DNA of 64,000 bases from Marinifilum sp. N1E240 (GTDB lineage: Bacteria > Bacteroidota > Bacteroidia > Bacteroidales > Marinifilaceae): the NCBI RefSeq assembly GCF_009295825.1, contig NZ_WHKF01000001.1, positions 585,088 to 649,087 of the forward strand. The letters are read 5' to 3'. Shown in pieces: positions 9,616 through 51,552 of the stretch (position 1 is its first letter; the number at the start of each line of letters is the position of its first letter). Position numbers and translations under genes: made by a program. The notes under the pieces are model-generated. The model had not been told where the DNA came from, made no database searches, and saw only the letters and a program-made list of their open reading frames with translations.

Positions 9616-10872
9616 ATGATATTATTAACAACACAGGGAACTGTTATTTCCATAAGTATAGCTGTATTCTTACTTGTGACCCTGATTCTAGTTTCTATAC
9701 TTTTGTTTGCAAAGAAGAAACTAACTCCATCAGGAGAAGTAACGATTGATATTAACGATGGTAATCAAAAATTAGTTGTAGAGCCAGGTAATACTCTATT
9801 GGGTACTTTAGGTGCTGCTAAAATCTTTCTTCCATCCGCTTGTGGTGGAGGTGGAACATGTGCAATGTGTAAGTGTCAGGTTCATGACGGTGCAGGTAGC
9901 ATTCTTCCAACAGAAGTTGATTACTTTACTCGTAAAGAAGCACAAACCAATTGGCGTTTGGCTTGTCAGGTAAAGGTGAAAGAAGACATGTCTATGTCGA
10001 TTCCTCAGGAAATTTTAGGAATAAAGAAATGGGAATGTGAAGTTGTTTCAAACGGAAACGTTGCTACTTTCATTAAAGAATTTGTTGTAAAATTGCCAGA
10101 AGGCGAAATTCTTGATTTTAAATCGGGTGGATACATTCAGATTGATGTACCAAAGATCGATGTTGATTTCAAGGATATGGACATAGAGGAACAGTATAGA
10201 TCTGATTGGGATCAGTTTAAGTTGTGGGATCTTAAGATGAAGAATCCAGAGCCAACTTATCGTGCTTACTCAATGGCTAACCACCCAGCAGAGGGAAATA
10301 TTGTAATGTTGAACATTCGTATTGCAACTCCACCTTGGGATAGAGTTAACAACACATGGCTGAATGTAAATCCAGGAATTTGTTCATCTTTCATCTTCTC
10401 GCGTAAGCCAGGGGATAAGGTAACAATATCGGGACCTTACGGTGAGTTCTTTATTAAAGAAACCAATAACGAAATGATGTTTATTGGTGGTGGTGCTGGT
10501 ATGGCTCCAATGCGTTCTCACATCTTCCACTTGTTCCACACTGTGAAAACGGGTCGTAAGGCGACTTTCTGGTATGGTGCTCGTTCATTGAAAGAGGTGT
10601 TCTATGCAGATCAGTTCGATGCTATCGCAGCTGATTTCCCTAACTTCGAATGGCATTTGGCACTTTCTGAGCCACTACCAGAGGATAATTGGGAAGGACC
10701 TACAGGGTTTATTCACCAGGTGATTTACGATAACTACTTATCTAAACATGATGAGCCGGAAGATATCGAATATTATTTGTGTGGACCTCCTATGATGAAT
10801 TCAGCTGTTGAAAACATGCTGTATGATATGGGAGTACCAGATGAAATGGTTGAGTTTGACGATTTCGGATGA
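9616..10872 (+). CDS. nqrF: Na+-NQR subunit F (NADH dehydrogenase, 2Fe-2S and FAD)
   Basis: NqrF takes electrons from NADH. It has an N-terminal membrane span (about 10-30) and a 2Fe-2S domain with Cys76, Cys82, Cys85 (CGGGGTCAMC) and Cys117 (RLACQV). A ferredoxin-reductase module follows, with FAD motif RAYSMANHP and NADH motifs FIGGGAGMAPMRSH and YLCGPPMM. The 418-residue length is slightly longer than the Vibrio protein. The operon ends 12 bases later in a strong terminator. Confidence 0.97.
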   Translation: MILLTTQGTVISISIAVFLLVTLILVSILLFAKKKLTPSGEVTIDINDGNQKLVVEPGNTLLGTLGAAKIFLPSACGGGGTCAMCKCQVHDGAGSILPTEVDYFTRKEAQTNWRLACQVKVKEDMSMSIPQEILGIKKWECEVVSNGNVATFIKEFVVKLPEGEILDFKSGGYIQIDVPKIDVDFKDMDIEEQYRSDWDQFKLWDLKMKNPEPTYRAYSMANHPAEGNIVMLNIRIATPPWDRVNNTWLNVNPGICSSFIFSRKPGDKVTISGPYGEFFIKETNNEMMFIGGGAGMAPMRSHIFHLFHTVKTGRKATFWYGARSLKEVFYADQFDAIAADFPNFEWHLALSEPLPEDNWEGPTGFIHQVIYDNYLSKHDEPEDIEYYLCGPPMMNSAVENMLYDMGVPDEMVEFDDFG

Positions 10873-12822: not shown

Positions 12823-15267
12823 ATGTCTGAAACAATAAAGGAAAACAAAGAAGCGAATGATGAAAATTTATCCTTTGAAGATTTTACTTCCGAAGTTCTT
12901 AAGGATTATCGCATAGCAAATATTAGTCGTCAGTTAAGTATTTTGGGGCGGAAAGAAGTACTTACCGGAAAAGCTAAATTTGGAATTTTTGGTGACGGAA
13001 AGGAAATTGCTCAAATCGCAATGGCAAAATCGTTCAAGGAGGGTGATTGGAGATCTGGATATTATCGAGATCAAACATTTATGCTTGCATCAGGAATGCT
13101 AACTCCAGAGGAATTTTTCGCACAATTATTTGGAGAAACACAGCTAGACAAGAATCCTGCAAATGGAGGTCGCTTAATGAATAACCATTATGCTTCCCGA
13201 AGTTTAAATGAAGATGGGAGTTGGAAGAATTTAACCAAGCAGAAAAATTCATCTGCCGACATTTCTCCAACAGCGGGTCAAATGCCACGTTTATTGGGAT
13301 TGGCATATGCTTCTAAATTGTTCAGGGAAAATAAGGAATTACATCAATTTAACGAATTTTCTATAAAGGGAAATGAAGTTGCATTTGGAACCATTGGCGA
13401 TTCAAGTACATCTGAAGGACATTTTTGGGAGACCATTAATGCAGCTGGTGTTTTAAAAGTACCAATGGCAATGAGTGTTTGGGATGATGGTTGGGGGATT
13501 TCTGTCCCGAACAAATATCAAACAACCAAATCGAATATATCCGAAGTTTTAAAAGGCTTTGAGCAAGATGAAAAAGGAGATGGATATTTAATATACAAAG
13601 CTAAAGGATGGGATTATCCAGCTCTTTGTAAAATGTATGTAGAAGGAGTTGAACTTTGCCGTAGAGATCATACACCAACATTATTTCACGTGACTGAAAT
13701 GACTCAACCTTTAGGACATTCAACTTCAGGATCGCATGAAAGATACAAGACAAAGGAGCGATTGGAATGGGAGAAAGAATTTGATCCAATCAAAAAAATG
13801 AGAGAATGGATTCTTTCAATGGAGTTGGTTGAAGGTGCAAAATTGGATGAAATAGAAGCTGATGCCATCGAAGAAGTGAAACAAGCCCGTAAGGCGGCAT
13901 GGAAAACTTTTATCGATCCGATTAAAAAAGAACGTGATAATTTGATCAAGTTGGTTGAAAATGCCGGCTGTGATTGCAAAAAAACGGAAAGAATTGACGC
14001 TATCACCAATGGATTAAAGAAAATTATTAATCCGGTACGTAAAGATAATGTTAGTGCGGCAAAGAAAATTCTAAGACACATTTGTTCAACCTGTGAAAGT
14101 TTTAAACCATTAAAATCTCAGTTGCAAGAATGGTTAAAGAATACAATAGAAGAGAATCATGAAAGATACAGCAGTTACTTGTATTCTGAAACAGAATTAG
14201 GCATCCAGAATATAAAAGCTGTTGATCCAATATATAGTGATACCTCTAAAACTGTGAATGGTCGGGAAGTACTTCGTGATAATTTTGAGAAACTATTTAC
14301 TAAATATCCATTGCTTTTGACCTTTGGTGAAGATACTGGCTTTATTGGCGGTGTGAATCAAAGTTTAGAAGGAATGCAGGAAAAGTTTGGAGAGTTAAGA
14401 GTTACCGATACCGGAATTCGCGAAGCTACCATTCTAGGGCAAGGTATTGGCTTAGCTTTACGAGGAATGCGTCCAATTGCTGAAATTCAGTATTTTGATT
14501 ATCTATTGTATGCTTTGCAAACCATGAGTGATGATTTGGCAACCATGCAATATCGTACCAAAGGTGGTCAAAAAGCGCCGGTGATAATTCGTACGCGTGG
14601 TCATAGACTTGAGGGAATTTGGCATTCAGGTTCTCCGTTAAGTATGGTTATAAATTCTATCCGTGGGGTACATGTTTGTGTTCCAAGAAACATGACTATT
14701 GCCGCAGGATTATACAATACACTTTTAGAATCGGATGAACCAGCTTTGGTTATTGAACCATTGAATGGATATCGATTGAAGGAAAAGCTTCCTGACAATT
14801 TGGGAGAGTTTAAAACTTCGTTGGGAGTACCTGAGGTTTTAAATGAGGGTTCGGATATTACTTTGGTAACTTATGGATCATGTGTTCGAATTGCAGAAGA
14901 TGCAGTTAAGCAATTGAAAGATTTTGATATTTCAGTGGAACTAATTGATGTACAAACATTACTGCCATTTGATGTGAACAGTCGAATTCTTGAATCTGTT
15001 AAAAAGACAAATCGAATTGTATTTTTCGATGAGGATGTTCCAGGTGGAGCAACTGCATTTATGATGCAGAAGGTTTTGGAAGATCAGAAGGCATACTTTT
15101 ACCTAGATTCAGAGCCTAAAACAATTACAGCAAAAGATCATCGTCCGGCTTATGGAACAGATGGAGATTATTTTTCAAATCCTAACGCAGAGGATGTCTT
15201 TGAATTGATCTATGAGATAATGAGGGAATCAAATCCAGATAAATTTCCTTCGATATATATTAACTAG
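12823..15267 (+). CDS. 2-oxoacid dehydrogenase E1, fused alpha and beta subunits
   Basis: This is a thiamine-diphosphate-dependent decarboxylase of the pyruvate or branched-chain 2-oxoacid dehydrogenase type. Residues about 25-390 are the alpha part, with TPP/Mg motif GDSSTSEGHFWETIN beginning near 192. Residues about 470-810 are the beta part, with LTFGEDTGFIGGVNQ, ILGQGIGLALRGMRPIAEIQYFDY and the C-terminal transketolase fold. A Cys-containing linker (CDCKK, CSTCESF) joins them. Fused E1 of about 800 residues is common in Bacteroidota. The E2 at 30602-31906 is the likely partner. I cannot tell the preferred oxoacid from sequence alone. Confidence 0.9.
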   Translation: MSETIKENKEANDENLSFEDFTSEVLKDYRIANISRQLSILGRKEVLTGKAKFGIFGDGKEIAQIAMAKSFKEGDWRSGYYRDQTFMLASGMLTPEEFFAQLFGETQLDKNPANGGRLMNNHYASRSLNEDGSWKNLTKQKNSSADISPTAGQMPRLLGLAYASKLFRENKELHQFNEFSIKGNEVAFGTIGDSSTSEGHFWETINAAGVLKVPMAMSVWDDGWGISVPNKYQTTKSNISEVLKGFEQDEKGDGYLIYKAKGWDYPALCKMYVEGVELCRRDHTPTLFHVTEMTQPLGHSTSGSHERYKTKERLEWEKEFDPIKKMREWILSMELVEGAKLDEIEADAIEEVKQARKAAWKTFIDPIKKERDNLIKLVENAGCDCKKTERIDAITNGLKKIINPVRKDNVSAAKKILRHICSTCESFKPLKSQLQEWLKNTIEENHERYSSYLYSETELGIQNIKAVDPIYSDTSKTVNGREVLRDNFEKLFTKYPLLLTFGEDTGFIGGVNQSLEGMQEKFGELRVTDTGIREATILGQGIGLALRGMRPIAEIQYFDYLLYALQTMSDDLATMQYRTKGGQKAPVIIRTRGHRLEGIWHSGSPLSMVINSIRGVHVCVPRNMTIAAGLYNTLLESDEPALVIEPLNGYRLKEKLPDNLGEFKTSLGVPEVLNEGSDITLVTYGSCVRIAEDAVKQLKDFDISVELIDVQTLLPFDVNSRILESVKKTNRIVFFDEDVPGGATAFMMQKVLEDQKAYFYLDSEPKTITAKDHRPAYGTDGDYFSNPNAEDVFELIYEIMRESNPDKFPSIYIN

Positions 15268-15288
15268 GCTTATTTTTAAGTAAAGTTT

Positions 15289-15319
15289 TAATCCGTAAAA
15301 ATTTATTTACGGATTTTTT
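15289..15319 (+). terminator. Terminator of the E1 gene
   Basis: Hairpin aatccgtaaa / tttacggatt followed by T6, 22 bases after the E1 stop. It closes the E1 transcript before the small-RNA cluster. Confidence 0.85.
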
Positions 15320-15327
15320 GTGTTCCC

Positions 15328-15358
15328 TGTCACCCATTATTACTTGCAACTTGTTATA
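15328..15358 (+). promoter_or_regulatory. ECF-like promoter of tandem unit 1
   Basis: tgtcacc at 15328-15334, then gtt at 15353-15355 (offset 25). The same pair of boxes at nearly the same spacing precedes units 2 and 3. The form TGTCAC-N16/18-cGTy resembles extracytoplasmic-function sigma promoters. The assignment is inference. Confidence 0.5.
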
Positions 15359-15361
15359 TAA

Positions 15362-15508
15362 GTGTTCGAAAGATTTTAAGTAGTTTTTCGAAAAAACTTT
15401 TAGTTAGTAATAGTTGGATGTAATGTGGTAATTCTTACAACGATAATGACTAATCGAGCTCAAATATAAAGAGCAACAGCCGTTTCATTGAGACGGCTGT
15501 TTTTTGTT
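15362..15508 (+). ncRNA. Candidate small RNA, tandem unit 1
   Basis: No ORF is present. The unit starts after the promoter-like boxes. It contains a 5-prime hairpin with ttcgaaa (15365-15371) and tttcgaa (15386-15392) arms, then ttttagttagt at 15398-15408 and an atgtaatgtggtaatt core. It ends in a clear intrinsic terminator, aacagccgt / acggctgtt with T6 (15475-15506). Estimated length is about 145 nucleotides. The 5-prime end is estimated from the promoter position. Units 2 and 3 share its layout and core words, which supports a real RNA family. Confidence 0.6.
15475..15506 (+). terminator. Terminator of small-RNA unit 1
   Basis: Nine-base-pair GC-rich stem aacagccgt / acggctgtt with a 9-base loop and T6. 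No gene ends within 200 bases upstream on this strand after the E1 terminator, so it must serve an untranslated transcript. Confidence 0.9.
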
Positions 15509-15550
15509 TGTCAAGTTTTTTATTCTATGAATTGAAATTTTCCAATTCTT

Positions 15551-15580
15551 TGTCACCCATTTTTTAGATGAACCTGTTTT
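15551..15580 (+). promoter_or_regulatory. ECF-like promoter of tandem unit 2
   Basis: tgtcacc at 15551-15557 and gtt at 15576-15578 (offset 25, identical to unit 1). The word gttcga follows at offset 36 in both units. Confidence 0.5.
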
Positions 15581-15584
15581 AGTA

Positions 15585-15737
15585 TTGTTCGAGGCGAGAA
15601 TTAGGGGTCTTAAATCGAATGTTTTTAGTATGTAGTGCCTATGTAATTAGGTGATGTAAAAATATCAGGGCACAATTTTAAAGGCTATATTATATAGCAA
15701 TAAGCAGTCATTCTTAGGGGGAGTGACTGTTTTTTTA
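15585..15737 (+). ncRNA. Candidate small RNA, tandem unit 2
   Basis: Second copy of the gene-free unit. It has ttcga (15588-15592) and tcgaa (15615-15619) arms in the same place as the unit 1 hairpin, then ttttagta at 15623 and an atgtaattaggtgatg core that aligns with unit 1. It ends in cagtca / tgactg with T7. Estimated length is about 150 nucleotides. Sequence between core and terminator differs from the other units, so targets may differ. Confidence 0.58.
15705..15736 (+). terminator. Terminator of small-RNA unit 2
   Basis: Stem cagtca (15705-15710) with tgactg (15724-15729), followed by seven T. Weaker than the terminators of units 1 and 3 but well placed. Confidence 0.75.
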
Positions 15738-15809
15738 TGTGTAAATCTCAGTTATAAAATAGTTAGTACTAAGGCAAGCATGTTAAATTTTGTTAAAAAT
15801 GAATTTTCC

Positions 15810-15840
15810 TGTCACCTTTTTACAATTTTACACGTCTTTA
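15810..15840 (+). promoter_or_regulatory. ECF-like promoter of tandem unit 3
   Basis: tgtcacc at 15810-15816 with cgtc at 15833-15836 (gtc offset 24). This copy has the best match to a TGTCAC...CGTC extracytoplasmic-sigma promoter. Confidence 0.5.
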
Positions 15841-15842
15841 GG

Positions 15843-15973
15843 GTATAAGTTTTTAGTTAGTGTTGGTTTGATACATTGTGGTTAGTGGTAAAATTGTCGT
15901 AATAGATAATTACAAATCAACATAAAATATAAACCTGGCATTATTCTTTTCTGTAGAATGCCAGGTTTTTTGT
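15843..15973 (+). ncRNA. Candidate small RNA, tandem unit 3
   Basis: Third gene-free unit. ttttagttagt at 15851-15861 is identical to unit 1 and is followed by a related gtttgatacattgtggtta core. The distance from tgtcacc to ttttagt is 41 instead of 70-72 bases, which removes the 5-prime hairpin seen in units 1 and 2. It ends in a strong terminator 3 bases from the convergent antiporter stop. Estimated length is about 130 nucleotides. Confidence 0.58.
15932..15972. terminator. Terminator of unit 3, probably shared with the antiporter gene
   Basis: Stem aacctggcatt / aatgccaggtt with T6 on the + strand. On the minus strand the same hairpin follows the antiporter stop by 2 bases and is followed by a U-rich stretch. 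Confidence 0.88.
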
Positions 15974-15974
15974 T

Positions 15975-17912
15975 TTAATATCTTTTTCCAATAAATTTTA
16001 CAATTAAAAATAGAATAGTAAAGCCCAGTGGAATTAAAAGCCATGAAGAAACTCCGTAAGCTGCAGGTAATAAACCAGCAAATATTGCAACTGATCCAAC
16101 GGTTAATGCATATGGAAGTTGGGTTCTGACGTGTTCTATATGATTACATGAACTTGCTAAAGAACTTAGGATGGTTGTATCTGAAATAGGAGAACAATGA
16201 TCACCTAAAACAGAACCTGCCAGAATTGCTGAGACCGTTATATAGAAAATGTTCATACTCTCAATGTTATTCATTCCAGCGGAGTGACAAAGAGCCCAGG
16301 AGGCTGGTAATATTAAGGGATAAAGAATAGCCATCGTACCCCAGGATGATCCTGTCGAAAAAGCAATTAATGCGGATAATATAAATGTAAATGTAGGCAA
16401 GAATTCAGGTGGAACATCTGTGGCAATTAATAAATTGGATATAAAATCAGCAGTATGCATGTCTTTTGTAATATCAGCCAGAGCCCAAGCCAAAATTAAA
16501 ATAAGTATTGCTGTAAGCATAGTTTTAAAACCGCTTACCAACGCATCAATGGTTTTTTTAAGGTTTAAAATACCTTGACTAATACTTAATGCTGCAGCTA
16601 CCAAGACAGCAGAAAGTGATGACCATAATAAGGCTAAATAAGAATCGGAAGATCCTATGATATGGGATAGTTTGGTGCCAAATGCTATGTTTGAATCATT
16701 CCAAATAGTTGTATCCCAACCAGTATATATTAATCCTGCAAAAGTTCCTAATATTACTATTAATACAGGAATTCCAGCATTGTACCAACGCGTCGGTATA
16801 TTCTCTGATATATGGATGCTTTCTTCTTCATTTAATTTTTCTTTTGAGACTATATTTTCAGGATTTCTTTCACCGGTTCGACTTCTTTTTTCGGCTTTAT
16901 ACATTGGACCAAAATCCCTTTTCATGATAACTAACATTAGAATGAAAAATAGGGTAAAGAAAGGATAAAAGCGGGTCGGCAATGAATTCAAAAATATACT
17001 ATAAGGACTTTCGATGATATTTATTTGAGAGGTAGCTGATTGAATGTAACTTAACTCAATTCCAATCCAGGTTGTAATCATTGCAATAGAGGCAACAGGA
17101 GCAGCTGTAGAATCAACAATATAAGCCAATTTTTCTCTTGAGATTTTCAACTTATCGGTTACAGGTCTCATTGTATTACCCACTACCAAGGTATTTGCAT
17201 AGTCATCAAAGAAAATAAGTACGCCCAATATCCAGGTAACTAATTGTCCTGATCGGTGACTGTTTGCAAATTTTGATAGTTTATTTACTACACCTTGCAT
17301 TCCACCATTTTTTGTAATAAGGTTCACCATAGCACCTATTAACATTGAAAATACAATTATTGATATATGACCTGAGTCGGTTAAAGATTGAATGATATAT
17401 GTATCAGATATCGCAAAAATTGCTTTAAAAAATGCAGTTAAAATTGATCCTTCCTGAAAGGAATAAATAATCAAAGTACCTGAAAATAAACCTACAAATA
17501 AAGCTGAAAACACTTCCTTAAATAACAAAGCCATAACAATGGCAATTAAAGGAGGTAATATCGACATCCATAAGGGGATGGCTGAAAAAGATTTGGATTG
17601 TTCTATATTGTATATTTGAACATTCACCTGCTGTTTTCCTTTAAAAACATATGGAATATGAATGTTGTTTTTAGTTGGAACGAGCTTAAAATGTTTTTGA
17701 TTGACAACCACTTCTAAACTGTCATTCGTATTTTGCCATTCTTGATCAAGTAGAATTTTAATTTCAGAATTTATGTCGGCAACTATTATTTTCGGCAATT
17801 CTATTTCAAAAGATGTAATTTGTTTTTTTTGTTGAATTGTAGAGGAAAAAACATAGTGAAAATTGGACAATAAAAATAGAAGGAGTATAGTTCGGACTAA
17901 GTATTTGTACAT
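15975..17912 (-). CDS. NhaC-family Na+/H+ antiporter with exported N-terminal domain
   Basis: Residues about 115-645 form an NhaC-type antiporter with roughly eleven membrane spans. Signatures include FKEVFSALFVGLFSG, FFDDYANTLVVGNTMRP, DSTAAPVASIAMITTWIG, FSTGSSWGTMAILYPL and LGDHCSPISDTTILSS. The first 23 residues look like a signal peptide. Residues 24-110 are a hydrophilic, beta-like segment before the first transport span, so a small domain lies outside the inner membrane. Family members are usually near 450-530 residues, so the extension explains the length of 645. It probably expels Na+, in step with Na+-NQR. Substrate specificity is inferred. Confidence 0.9.
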   Translation of the reverse strand: MYKYLVRTILLLFLLSNFHYVFSSTIQQKKQITSFEIELPKIIVADINSEIKILLDQEWQNTNDSLEVVVNQKHFKLVPTKNNIHIPYVFKGKQQVNVQIYNIEQSKSFSAIPLWMSILPPLIAIVMALLFKEVFSALFVGLFSGTLIIYSFQEGSILTAFFKAIFAISDTYIIQSLTDSGHISIIVFSMLIGAMVNLITKNGGMQGVVNKLSKFANSHRSGQLVTWILGVLIFFDDYANTLVVGNTMRPVTDKLKISREKLAYIVDSTAAPVASIAMITTWIGIELSYIQSATSQINIIESPYSIFLNSLPTRFYPFFTLFFILMLVIMKRDFGPMYKAEKRSRTGERNPENIVSKEKLNEEESIHISENIPTRWYNAGIPVLIVILGTFAGLIYTGWDTTIWNDSNIAFGTKLSHIIGSSDSYLALLWSSLSAVLVAAALSISQGILNLKKTIDALVSGFKTMLTAILILILAWALADITKDMHTADFISNLLIATDVPPEFLPTFTFILSALIAFSTGSSWGTMAILYPLILPASWALCHSAGMNNIESMNIFYITVSAILAGSVLGDHCSPISDTTILSSLASSCNHIEHVRTQLPYALTVGSVAIFAGLLPAAYGVSSWLLIPLGFTILFLIVKFIGKRY

Positions 17913-51370: not shown

Positions 51371-51552
51371 TTAAATTCCTACTCGTAAGGCTTTTCGGAT
51401 TCGCCCCGTTCTGTGGTTTCTGGTCTCCATTAAAATTAGCAGGCGCGAAAGTAATAAATTTAATTATTATGCTTGGTAATGATTTGTTGATTTATCTTAA
51501 ATTACTGTATTTATGGACCCTTTAGTTGATAAAGTCAGATTCCCATATAAGT

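Follow-up and report, generated by a model that had tools for sequence, protein, structure and literature searches.

Three consecutive units without long ORFs, lying between an E1 gene and a convergent antiporter gene of Marinifilum sp. N1E240, are probably paralogous trans-acting sRNAs (about 140, 150 and 130 nt) which are controlled by an ECF sigma factor and silence another SusC, a reading in which both expression and regulation are inferred. The leader of a susC mRNA pairs strongly with units 1 and 3 and weakly with unit 2, an observation of complementarity only, and the 5' hairpin of the units resembling unit 1 (type A) covaries as RNA.

Three tandem units and their relatives

Coordinates are positions in the window, i.e., the whole stretch of 64,000 nt that was analysed, and refer to the + strand unless stated otherwise. 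The features of the locus are as follows:

12823-15267: E1 gene (2-oxoacid dehydrogenase-type), upstream of unit 1
15290-15315, +: E1 intrinsic terminator (terminator scan), insulating unit 1
15328-15358, +: unit 1 promoter, TGTCACC at 15328-15334 and TGTTATA at 15352-15358
15365-15506, +: unit 1, predicted sRNA of type A (match to model R1, fold, family recurrence)
15365-15392, +: 5' hairpin P1 of unit 1, 11 pairs (fold)
15398-15440, +: unit 1 core, antisense to the susC leader (TTTTAGTTAGTAAT ... GATGTAATGTGGTAATTCTT; pairing energy)
15475-15506, +: unit 1 terminator (terminator scan)
15551-15581, +: unit 2 promoter, TGTCACC at 15551-15557 and TGTTTTA at 15575-15581
15588-15737, +: unit 2, predicted sRNA of type B (match to model R1, fold)
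15622-15669, +: unit 2 core, weak pairing with the susC leader
15702-15736, +: unit 2 terminator (terminator scan)
15782-15797, +: GTTAAA N4 GTTAAA box upstream of unit 3
15810-15839, +: unit 3 promoter, TGTCACC at 15810-15816 and CGTCTTT at 15833-15839, spacing one base shorter
15842-15973, +: unit 3, predicted sRNA of type C (match to model R2, fold, family recurrence)
15850-15897, +: unit 3 core, antisense to the susC leader (TTTTTAGTTAGT ... TGTGGTTAGTGGTAA; pairing energy)
15924-15975, +: unit 3 terminator, abutting the antiporter gene (inverted repeat, fold)
15975-17912, -: convergent antiporter gene

The initial annotation had placed the units correctly, and their lengths come out at about 142, 150 and 132 nt. 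Its statement that they hold no ORF stands in the sense that none of at least 80 aa lies wholly between the E1 and antiporter genes on either strand; the + strand has three small frames, of 21, 41 and 31 aa, with TTG or GTG starts, none of which covers a core in full, the 31-aa frame (15790-15885) overlapping that of unit 3. Each unit also has its own terminator, as had been proposed: the terminator scan returned stems at 15475-15501 and 15702-15732 in addition to that of E1 at 15290-15315 (three found against 0.9 in shuffles, sd 1.0), and the terminator of unit 3, missing from the scan because its loop is too long, is an inverted repeat (15924-15942/15957-15975) which is also present in the fold. 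Compared with dinucleotide shuffles, the folds of units 1, 2 and 3 reach z values of -4.6, -3.7 and -4.2, terminators included.

On direct reading of the sequence, the shared motifs TTTTAGT(TAGT) and ATGTAAT/ATACATT..GGT are present as previously described, and ungapped repeats link unit 1 to unit 3 (43 nt at 72% and 29 nt at 79%); a further one, of 47 nt at 70%, joins the promoter region of unit 1 to that of unit 2. Blastn matches were obtained in 10 of 39 genomes, that of the window (G000) included, one of the ten being a 35-nt match in G001 which looks like chance. From these matches two covariance models were built, R1 from 11 aligned type A (unit 1-like) sequences and R2 from seven aligned type C (unit 3-like) sequences. 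Within the family, R1 matches 18 of 56 genomes (Marinifilum, Labilibaculum and kin) and R2 matches 16 of 56, G000 being counted in both, and in an order-wide search with R1, in which ten candidates were scored per genome, the only one of 295 genomes drawn to give a match was again G000. R1 places unit 1 at 15363-15505 (115.7 bits) and R2 places unit 3 at 15840-15973 (125.8 bits), both sequences being part of the respective models. More independent are the cross-matches, run over 42 sources with near-identical or overlapping loci left out: R1, which contains no type B or C sequence, detects unit 2 at E 3.7e-4, and R2, which contains no type A sequence, detects unit 1 at E 5.4e-5. As the models and the units they detect are of different types, the three units are to be regarded as paralogues, which bears out the earlier view of them as diverged duplicates.

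A pattern scan of named genomes returned 29 stretches, of which 18 are in Marinifilum, Labilibaculum or Marinifilaceae records; the remaining 11 belong by name to other phyla or families and may be due to chance. Gene order is partly kept, as judged by eye, in the sequence E1, type A, type B or a second type A, type C and antiporter, and in some genomes a gene that by eye alone appears acetyltransferase-like precedes type C. Three R1 matches (L042:2173, L058:1389 and L067:1196) were dropped because by eye they resemble terminators or coding sequence; these, together with cut and duplicate L098 rows, are excluded from the counts used below (34 type A, 8 type B and 17 type C units). R2 also gave 16 weak matches, spread over g17, G010 and G001, of which the eight inspected were by eye terminator-like or otherwise not homologues, the other eight (E 4 to 8) remaining outside that inspection; one of those inspected resembles what we take to be an FMN leader.

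Evidence for an RNA-level structure comes from P1, evaluated in 25 selected type A units with an alignment made by sequence and not fitted to structure. In this alignment 89.8% of the P1 cells are paired, compared to 32-56% in slid controls, and 32 cells are changed on both sides, compared to at most 12 in the slid controls (at most 56.1% paired). Three of five P1 measures exceed all 500 shuffles and the other two do not go beyond them (58 and 140 of 500), and in 22 of the 25 units P1 lies beyond 2 sd of the shuffles. A helix around the core (P3) beats the shuffles in 20 of 25 units and is not claimed, since it exceeds 2 sd in only two of the 25.

The initial annotation had named covariance-model and Rfam searches as ways of checking a small-RNA family. 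The former yields the recurrence in 18 of 56 family genomes together with the covarying 5' hairpin, and with Rfam 15, applied to the whole window, no family reaches its gathering score at the three units; at 15250-16050, up to E 5, only far sub-threshold matches (12) were returned. The only gathering-score match in the window is a DUF805 RNA (RF03081) at 51372-51435 on the - strand. Nor is a tandem sRNA family of this kind described in the titles and opening parts of abstracts that were covered (few of them from subscription papers or preprints), so that the absence of a named Bacteroidota family with such a layout agrees with both Rfam and this literature. The family itself, for which there are no transcript data, is supported by conservation, by the covarying hairpin and by the units' own terminators.

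Promoters and the ECF sigma factor

In all three units the second promoter element begins 23-24 bases on. The promoter pair first described for the units is upheld on its -35 side and resembles the promoter between the genes for an ECF sigma factor and FecR, although its exact pattern taken alone gave 15 matches against 14 in the reversed control, i.e., no enrichment. A generic sigma-70 scan misses the TGTCACC sites (5 found, 7.5 expected), as is to be expected for promoters of another type. A strict pattern, GTCACCC N15-16 TGTYWWA, run over ten genomes, gave 15 matches against one in the control, and a second, looser pattern says little by itself, since it gave 10 matches against 7 in controls. 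All but two of the strict matches are located either at sRNA units or at the junction of a FecI-type ECF sigma gene with FecR, and one of the two others also precedes a gene-free unit. In two genomes of the Marinifilum genus, at L124 (G018:C36:28087) and L189 (G062:C2:238797), the same ECF-type promoter is followed by a short unit without a gene, which reaches a GGCCACAGGCC terminator after ~50 nt.

The ECF operon of G000 encodes the sigma factor (TIGR02985), FecR (PF04773, PF16344), SusC (TIGR04056), SusD (PF14322) and a lipoprotein (TIGR04549), and of the nine FecR genes of this genome only the one in this operon has the promoter box. Orthologs of the sigma factor with at least 70% identity are present in 16 of the 56 family genomes, exactly the set matched by R2, and in all 16 of these systems the box is found between the ECF and FecR genes, reading GTCACCT in G006. 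Four g17 genomes (ECF identity 56-60%) have the same junction box; the sigma factor, its promoter and the susC leader described below are present there, but type A, B and C units were not found. Other genomes depart from the pattern in different ways: G010 has a type A unit with neither a close ECF ortholog nor TGTCACC, and in the fragmented assembly of G058 there are type A units plus one type C unit that is cut off at a contig end, and no close ECF ortholog was found, which makes the 16-to-16 co-occurrence imperfect. This co-occurrence, as well as the partner switch described below, rests on few evolutionary events within one clade.

When a weight matrix derived solely from 12 ECF-FecR junction promoters was scanned over 464 kb of G000, the promoter of unit 2 came first with a score of 31.8, the next being 15.1; that of unit 1 ranked sixth (14.4) and is thus considered degenerate, and that of unit 3 was outside the 15 best. 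Likeness to the junction promoter is therefore clear for unit 2 and less so for units 1 and 3. Across the family, the strict TGTCACC form precedes 8 of 34 type A, all 8 type B and 2 of 17 type C units, and a loose form 20 of 34, 8 of 8 and 16 of 17, respectively.

These mixed counts leave some room for an explanation that we consider unlikely, namely that the sRNAs are real and not under this ECF sigma factor, the TGTCACC-like boxes belonging to a different one or serving several, and many copies having other promoters. Many type A and C promoters are indeed degenerate, 14 of the 34 type A units lacking even the loose form, and a further RNA-like unit with the same target (type D, see below) has a primary-sigma box, TACTTTTG; against this, the unit 2 promoter stands out of 464 kb with a matrix to which only ECF-FecR junctions contributed, and ECF orthologs of at least 70% identity occur in the same 16 genomes as the R2 matches. 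Given the matrix ranks and the box counts, control by the ECF sigma factor would appear likely for unit 2, as judged from promoter likeness and co-occurrence only and without expression data; for unit 1 it may be called plausible and for unit 3, where the case is weaker than for either of the others, merely possible, and in neither is it proven.

Other elements were observed upstream of some copies. A GTTAAA-spacer-GTTAAA box is present within 110 nt of 15 of 17 type C and 6 of 34 type A units, and it also precedes the promoter region of the target susC (L245); being common to type C and this gene, it is possibly the site of a shared activator. At L061, L063, L091 and L114, separate type A copies are preceded not by the ECF box but by a palindrome, TTGTTAGACAAT..ATTGTCTAACA or a variant of it, which suggests another regulator.

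The leader of a susC mRNA as candidate target

The screen for candidate targets covered 325 mechanically called ORFs, taken from twenty 20-kb samples of G000 as well as from the window and the ECF locus. Together these amount to about 480 of the 4983 kb of G000; better targets may therefore exist. The candidate that emerged is a susC gene (G000:C11:1100951) located 500 kb from the units and followed by susD (TIGR04056, PF12771). With short loops it took first place for both type A and type C, and fifth place for type B. The full type A core placed it first of 325 with a z of -6.7 (next gene -3.1), and so did the full type C core with a z of -5.2 (next gene -3.0). Pairing energies with the susC leader are -36.0 kcal/mol for the core of unit 1 and -37.6 kcal/mol for that of unit 3, none of 1000 leader or sRNA shuffles being as good in either case, and the pairing spans nearly the whole leader, from about -60 to -8 of the start codon. 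Types A and C likewise pair with their own leaders in G022, G006, G018 and G008 (0 of 300 shuffles as good in each), as does the type A unit of G010 (1 of 300).

Unit 2 is different. Its core reaches -20.4 kcal/mol, with 8 of 1000 leader and 51 of 1000 sRNA shuffles as good, and for the full unit the figures are 67 of 1000 for leader shuffles and 34 of 1000 for sRNA shuffles; with its core, the target susC is outside the top 8 of the 325 ORFs, and for type B units against their own leaders 2 of 300 shuffles in G018 and 25 of 300 in G006 were as good. The unit with the best ECF promoter thus has the weakest susC pairing. The expectation that the units act together on overlapping targets can consequently be retained for units 1 and 3, which were computed to pair with the same leader, and only weakly for unit 2.

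Other candidates fared less well. The susC of the ECF operon ranked 168 (unit 1) and 188 (unit 3) of 325, and the ECF gene itself 68 and 8, both being weak leads at best; the leader of the former holds a conserved ACTAACC stretch, and the start region of the latter pairs with type C in some genomes. Further ACTAACTAAAA sites in G000 (three SusC leaders and the type D complement) ranked third of 326 at best with the cores and are not claimed, secondary targets at such sites being possible. As a separate observation, the stretch between fecR and susC of the ECF operon, at L129 (about 10177-10300) and in its orthologs, contains a hairpin (CCGGGATTTGCTGCCACAAACCCCGG) as well as a leader, ACTAACCAAATCACA, whose conservation is strong.

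The target leader is common to 20 of 21 SusC matches from six genera, compared after selection by ORF start, and is in most of them nearly letter-for-letter the same, the SusC proteins that share it being as little as 45% identical; the few changes are in g17, where it reads ATTATTACCATTAAACC, and in G010. In one other conservation line the last 11 columns were fixed by the way leaders were selected. The reverse complement of the leader, TTTTTAGTTAGTAATT..GATGCAAAATGGTTAATGGTAATTCT, looks as if the cores of types A and C had been superimposed. Although the leader and sRNA loci are unlinked, one position switches in step: a leader with AAGAATT is accompanied by an sRNA with AATTCTT in G000, G006, G010 and four Marinifilum genomes, and a leader with TAGAATT by an sRNA with AATTCTA in six genomes of genus g12 and in G008, the exception being G011. 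The mean identical run is 10.9 with the own leader compared to 9.3 with those of other genera, on the basis of 21 of 25 copies, three of the others having no leader to compare and one (G008b) lacking the motif.

Complementarity does not by itself decide what pairing would do. That the sRNAs activate or stabilise the susC mRNA, or that the leader serves as a decoy, is in our view improbable: pairing over almost all of the leader could shield the 5' end, and the sign of the effect cannot be told from sequence, but the leader, which folds only weakly when alone (-2.0), offers little structure that could be opened, and in the case of FopS start-codon-proximal pairing represses, as far as the accessible part of that report goes (PMC11697453).

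Besides types A, B and C, an RNA-like unit with a core antisense to the same leader was observed outside the window in three genera (G000, G006 and G018). This type D unit, found on the minus strand of L277 at about 1620-1455 (G000:C21, near 845.7 kb) and also at L281 and L284, is about 148 nt long and comprises, apart from its primary-sigma box, an unpaired TTTTTAGTTAGTTGGTTAATGG and a terminator, its hairpin having an AGGGG-type loop (GGGG in G006) that is G-rich like those of types A and B. Its energies against the leader are -31.1, -30.2 and -34.5 in G000, G006 and G018, mononucleotide shuffles averaging about -14 and 0 of 500 being as good; the match is in part due to selection, because the search pattern is contained in type D. 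R1 and R2 barely detect it, and its common descent with types A, B and C thus remains open. About 100 nt downstream of type D in G000 and G018, but not seen in L281, is a FopS-like RNA (L277:1282-1359, minus strand, RF04319 with 33.7 bits against a gathering score of 56, and L284, + strand, near 1650-1750, by eye), which if real would extend FopS beyond the Bacteroidaceae.

Two explanations without a trans-acting RNA remain to be considered. Very improbably, the units are elements that work as DNA or in cis (arrays of protein-binding sites, attenuators, or leaders whose genes have been lost) and resemble the susC leader because both contain the same protein-binding sequence; the conservation of that leader in g17, without A, B or C units, fits such elements and means that it may have a role of its own, but each unit has its own terminator with no sense gene after it, the 5' hairpin covaries as RNA, and the sequence that is antisense in units 1 and 3 lies between the promoter and the start codon of susC. 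That the units encode short peptides is hardly credible, for although three small frames overlap the stretch, they have TTG or GTG starts and none covers a core in full, and the indels between aligned units are not multiples of three (frame conservation was not scored).

Proposed circuit and comparison with known systems

The preferred reading, ECF-controlled sRNAs acting on the susC leader, would work as follows. The units are inferred to be driven by an ECF sigma factor of the FecI type, the same promoter being present in that factor's own FecR-SusC-SusD operon; the conserved cores of units 1 and 3 would then pair with nearly the whole leader of the other susC, and the duplex may block ribosome entry and so repress the target SusC-SusD importer. 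Switching one importer on would in this way switch another down, with repression, trigger and nutrient being the inferred parts. More tentatively, and with somewhat less than even confidence, the system can be read as a SusC receptor, FecR and a FecI-type sigma factor that act through a tandem sRNA array to silence a competing importer, each sRNA corresponding to an imperfect copy, in antisense, of another SusC's leader. Several signals would then converge on one nearly invariant leader, since type D and the palindrome-preceded type A copies of Labilibaculum meet the same leader. The SusC of the ECF operon is a probable signal transducer by virtue of an N-terminal extension seen by eye, no such Pfam domain having been named.

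Genomes of Bacteroidota often encode numerous SusC importers along with numerous FecI-type sigma factors, and how their cells rank one importer against another is largely an open question. A circuit of one sigma factor, three sRNAs and one leader in culturable marine genera would make such ranking testable; no sensor-to-silencer circuit of this kind is described for Bacteroidota in the portions of the literature that were searched.

Among known systems, sigma-E, an ECF sigma factor, drives the enterobacterial sRNAs MicA and RybB, which silence outer-membrane proteins. The units would resemble these as ECF-driven sRNAs silencing an outer-membrane protein, the first property being inferred here from promoter likeness and co-occurrence only and the second from complementarity, and differ in having a FecI-type sigma factor with ties to a SusC operon; to our knowledge, Hfq is mostly absent in Bacteroidota. 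Qrr and OmrA/OmrB, to which the units had originally been likened, are adjacent or paralogous sRNAs with common and separate pairing regions, but belong to a different phylum and have different sequences and regulators.

Within the Bacteroidota, the available part of a study of Flavobacterium psychrophilum (PMC9723704) describes Rfp11, a regulatory RNA downstream of the ECF-type motif SM6, and gives TAnnTTTG as the primary-sigma consensus; Rfp11 is thus likewise an RNA behind an ECF-type promoter motif, with no target named in that part.

The closest comparison is with FopS/GibS (RF04319) of Bacteroides thetaiotaomicron. According to the part of the report accessible to us (PMC11697453), these are multi-copy paralogous sRNAs of about 65-70 nt, encoded at many loci, 9 of 14 of them intergenic, and preceded by sigma-ABfr promoters, which pair with the translation starts of susC mRNAs and repress them, as demonstrated experimentally for a susC of B. 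thetaiotaomicron; they are bound by the RRM protein RbpB. The present units are likewise from Bacteroidales, multi-copy and paralogous, and units 1 and 3 match a susC start region by computation. Unlike FopS, they are 130-150 nt long and arranged in tandem, with ECF-type promoters (TGTCACC-type boxes), a covarying 5' hairpin and a different seed, so that they lack the length and the primary-sigma promoter typical of FopS. RF04319 is not among the 12 matches up to E 5 at 15250-16050 and has no gathering-score match in the whole window. The best reading of the sequences may therefore be of sRNAs that are FopS-like in their working but not FopS by sequence, which would suggest that multi-copy antisense control of susC, here by RNAs unrelated to FopS, is a wider habit of the phylum.
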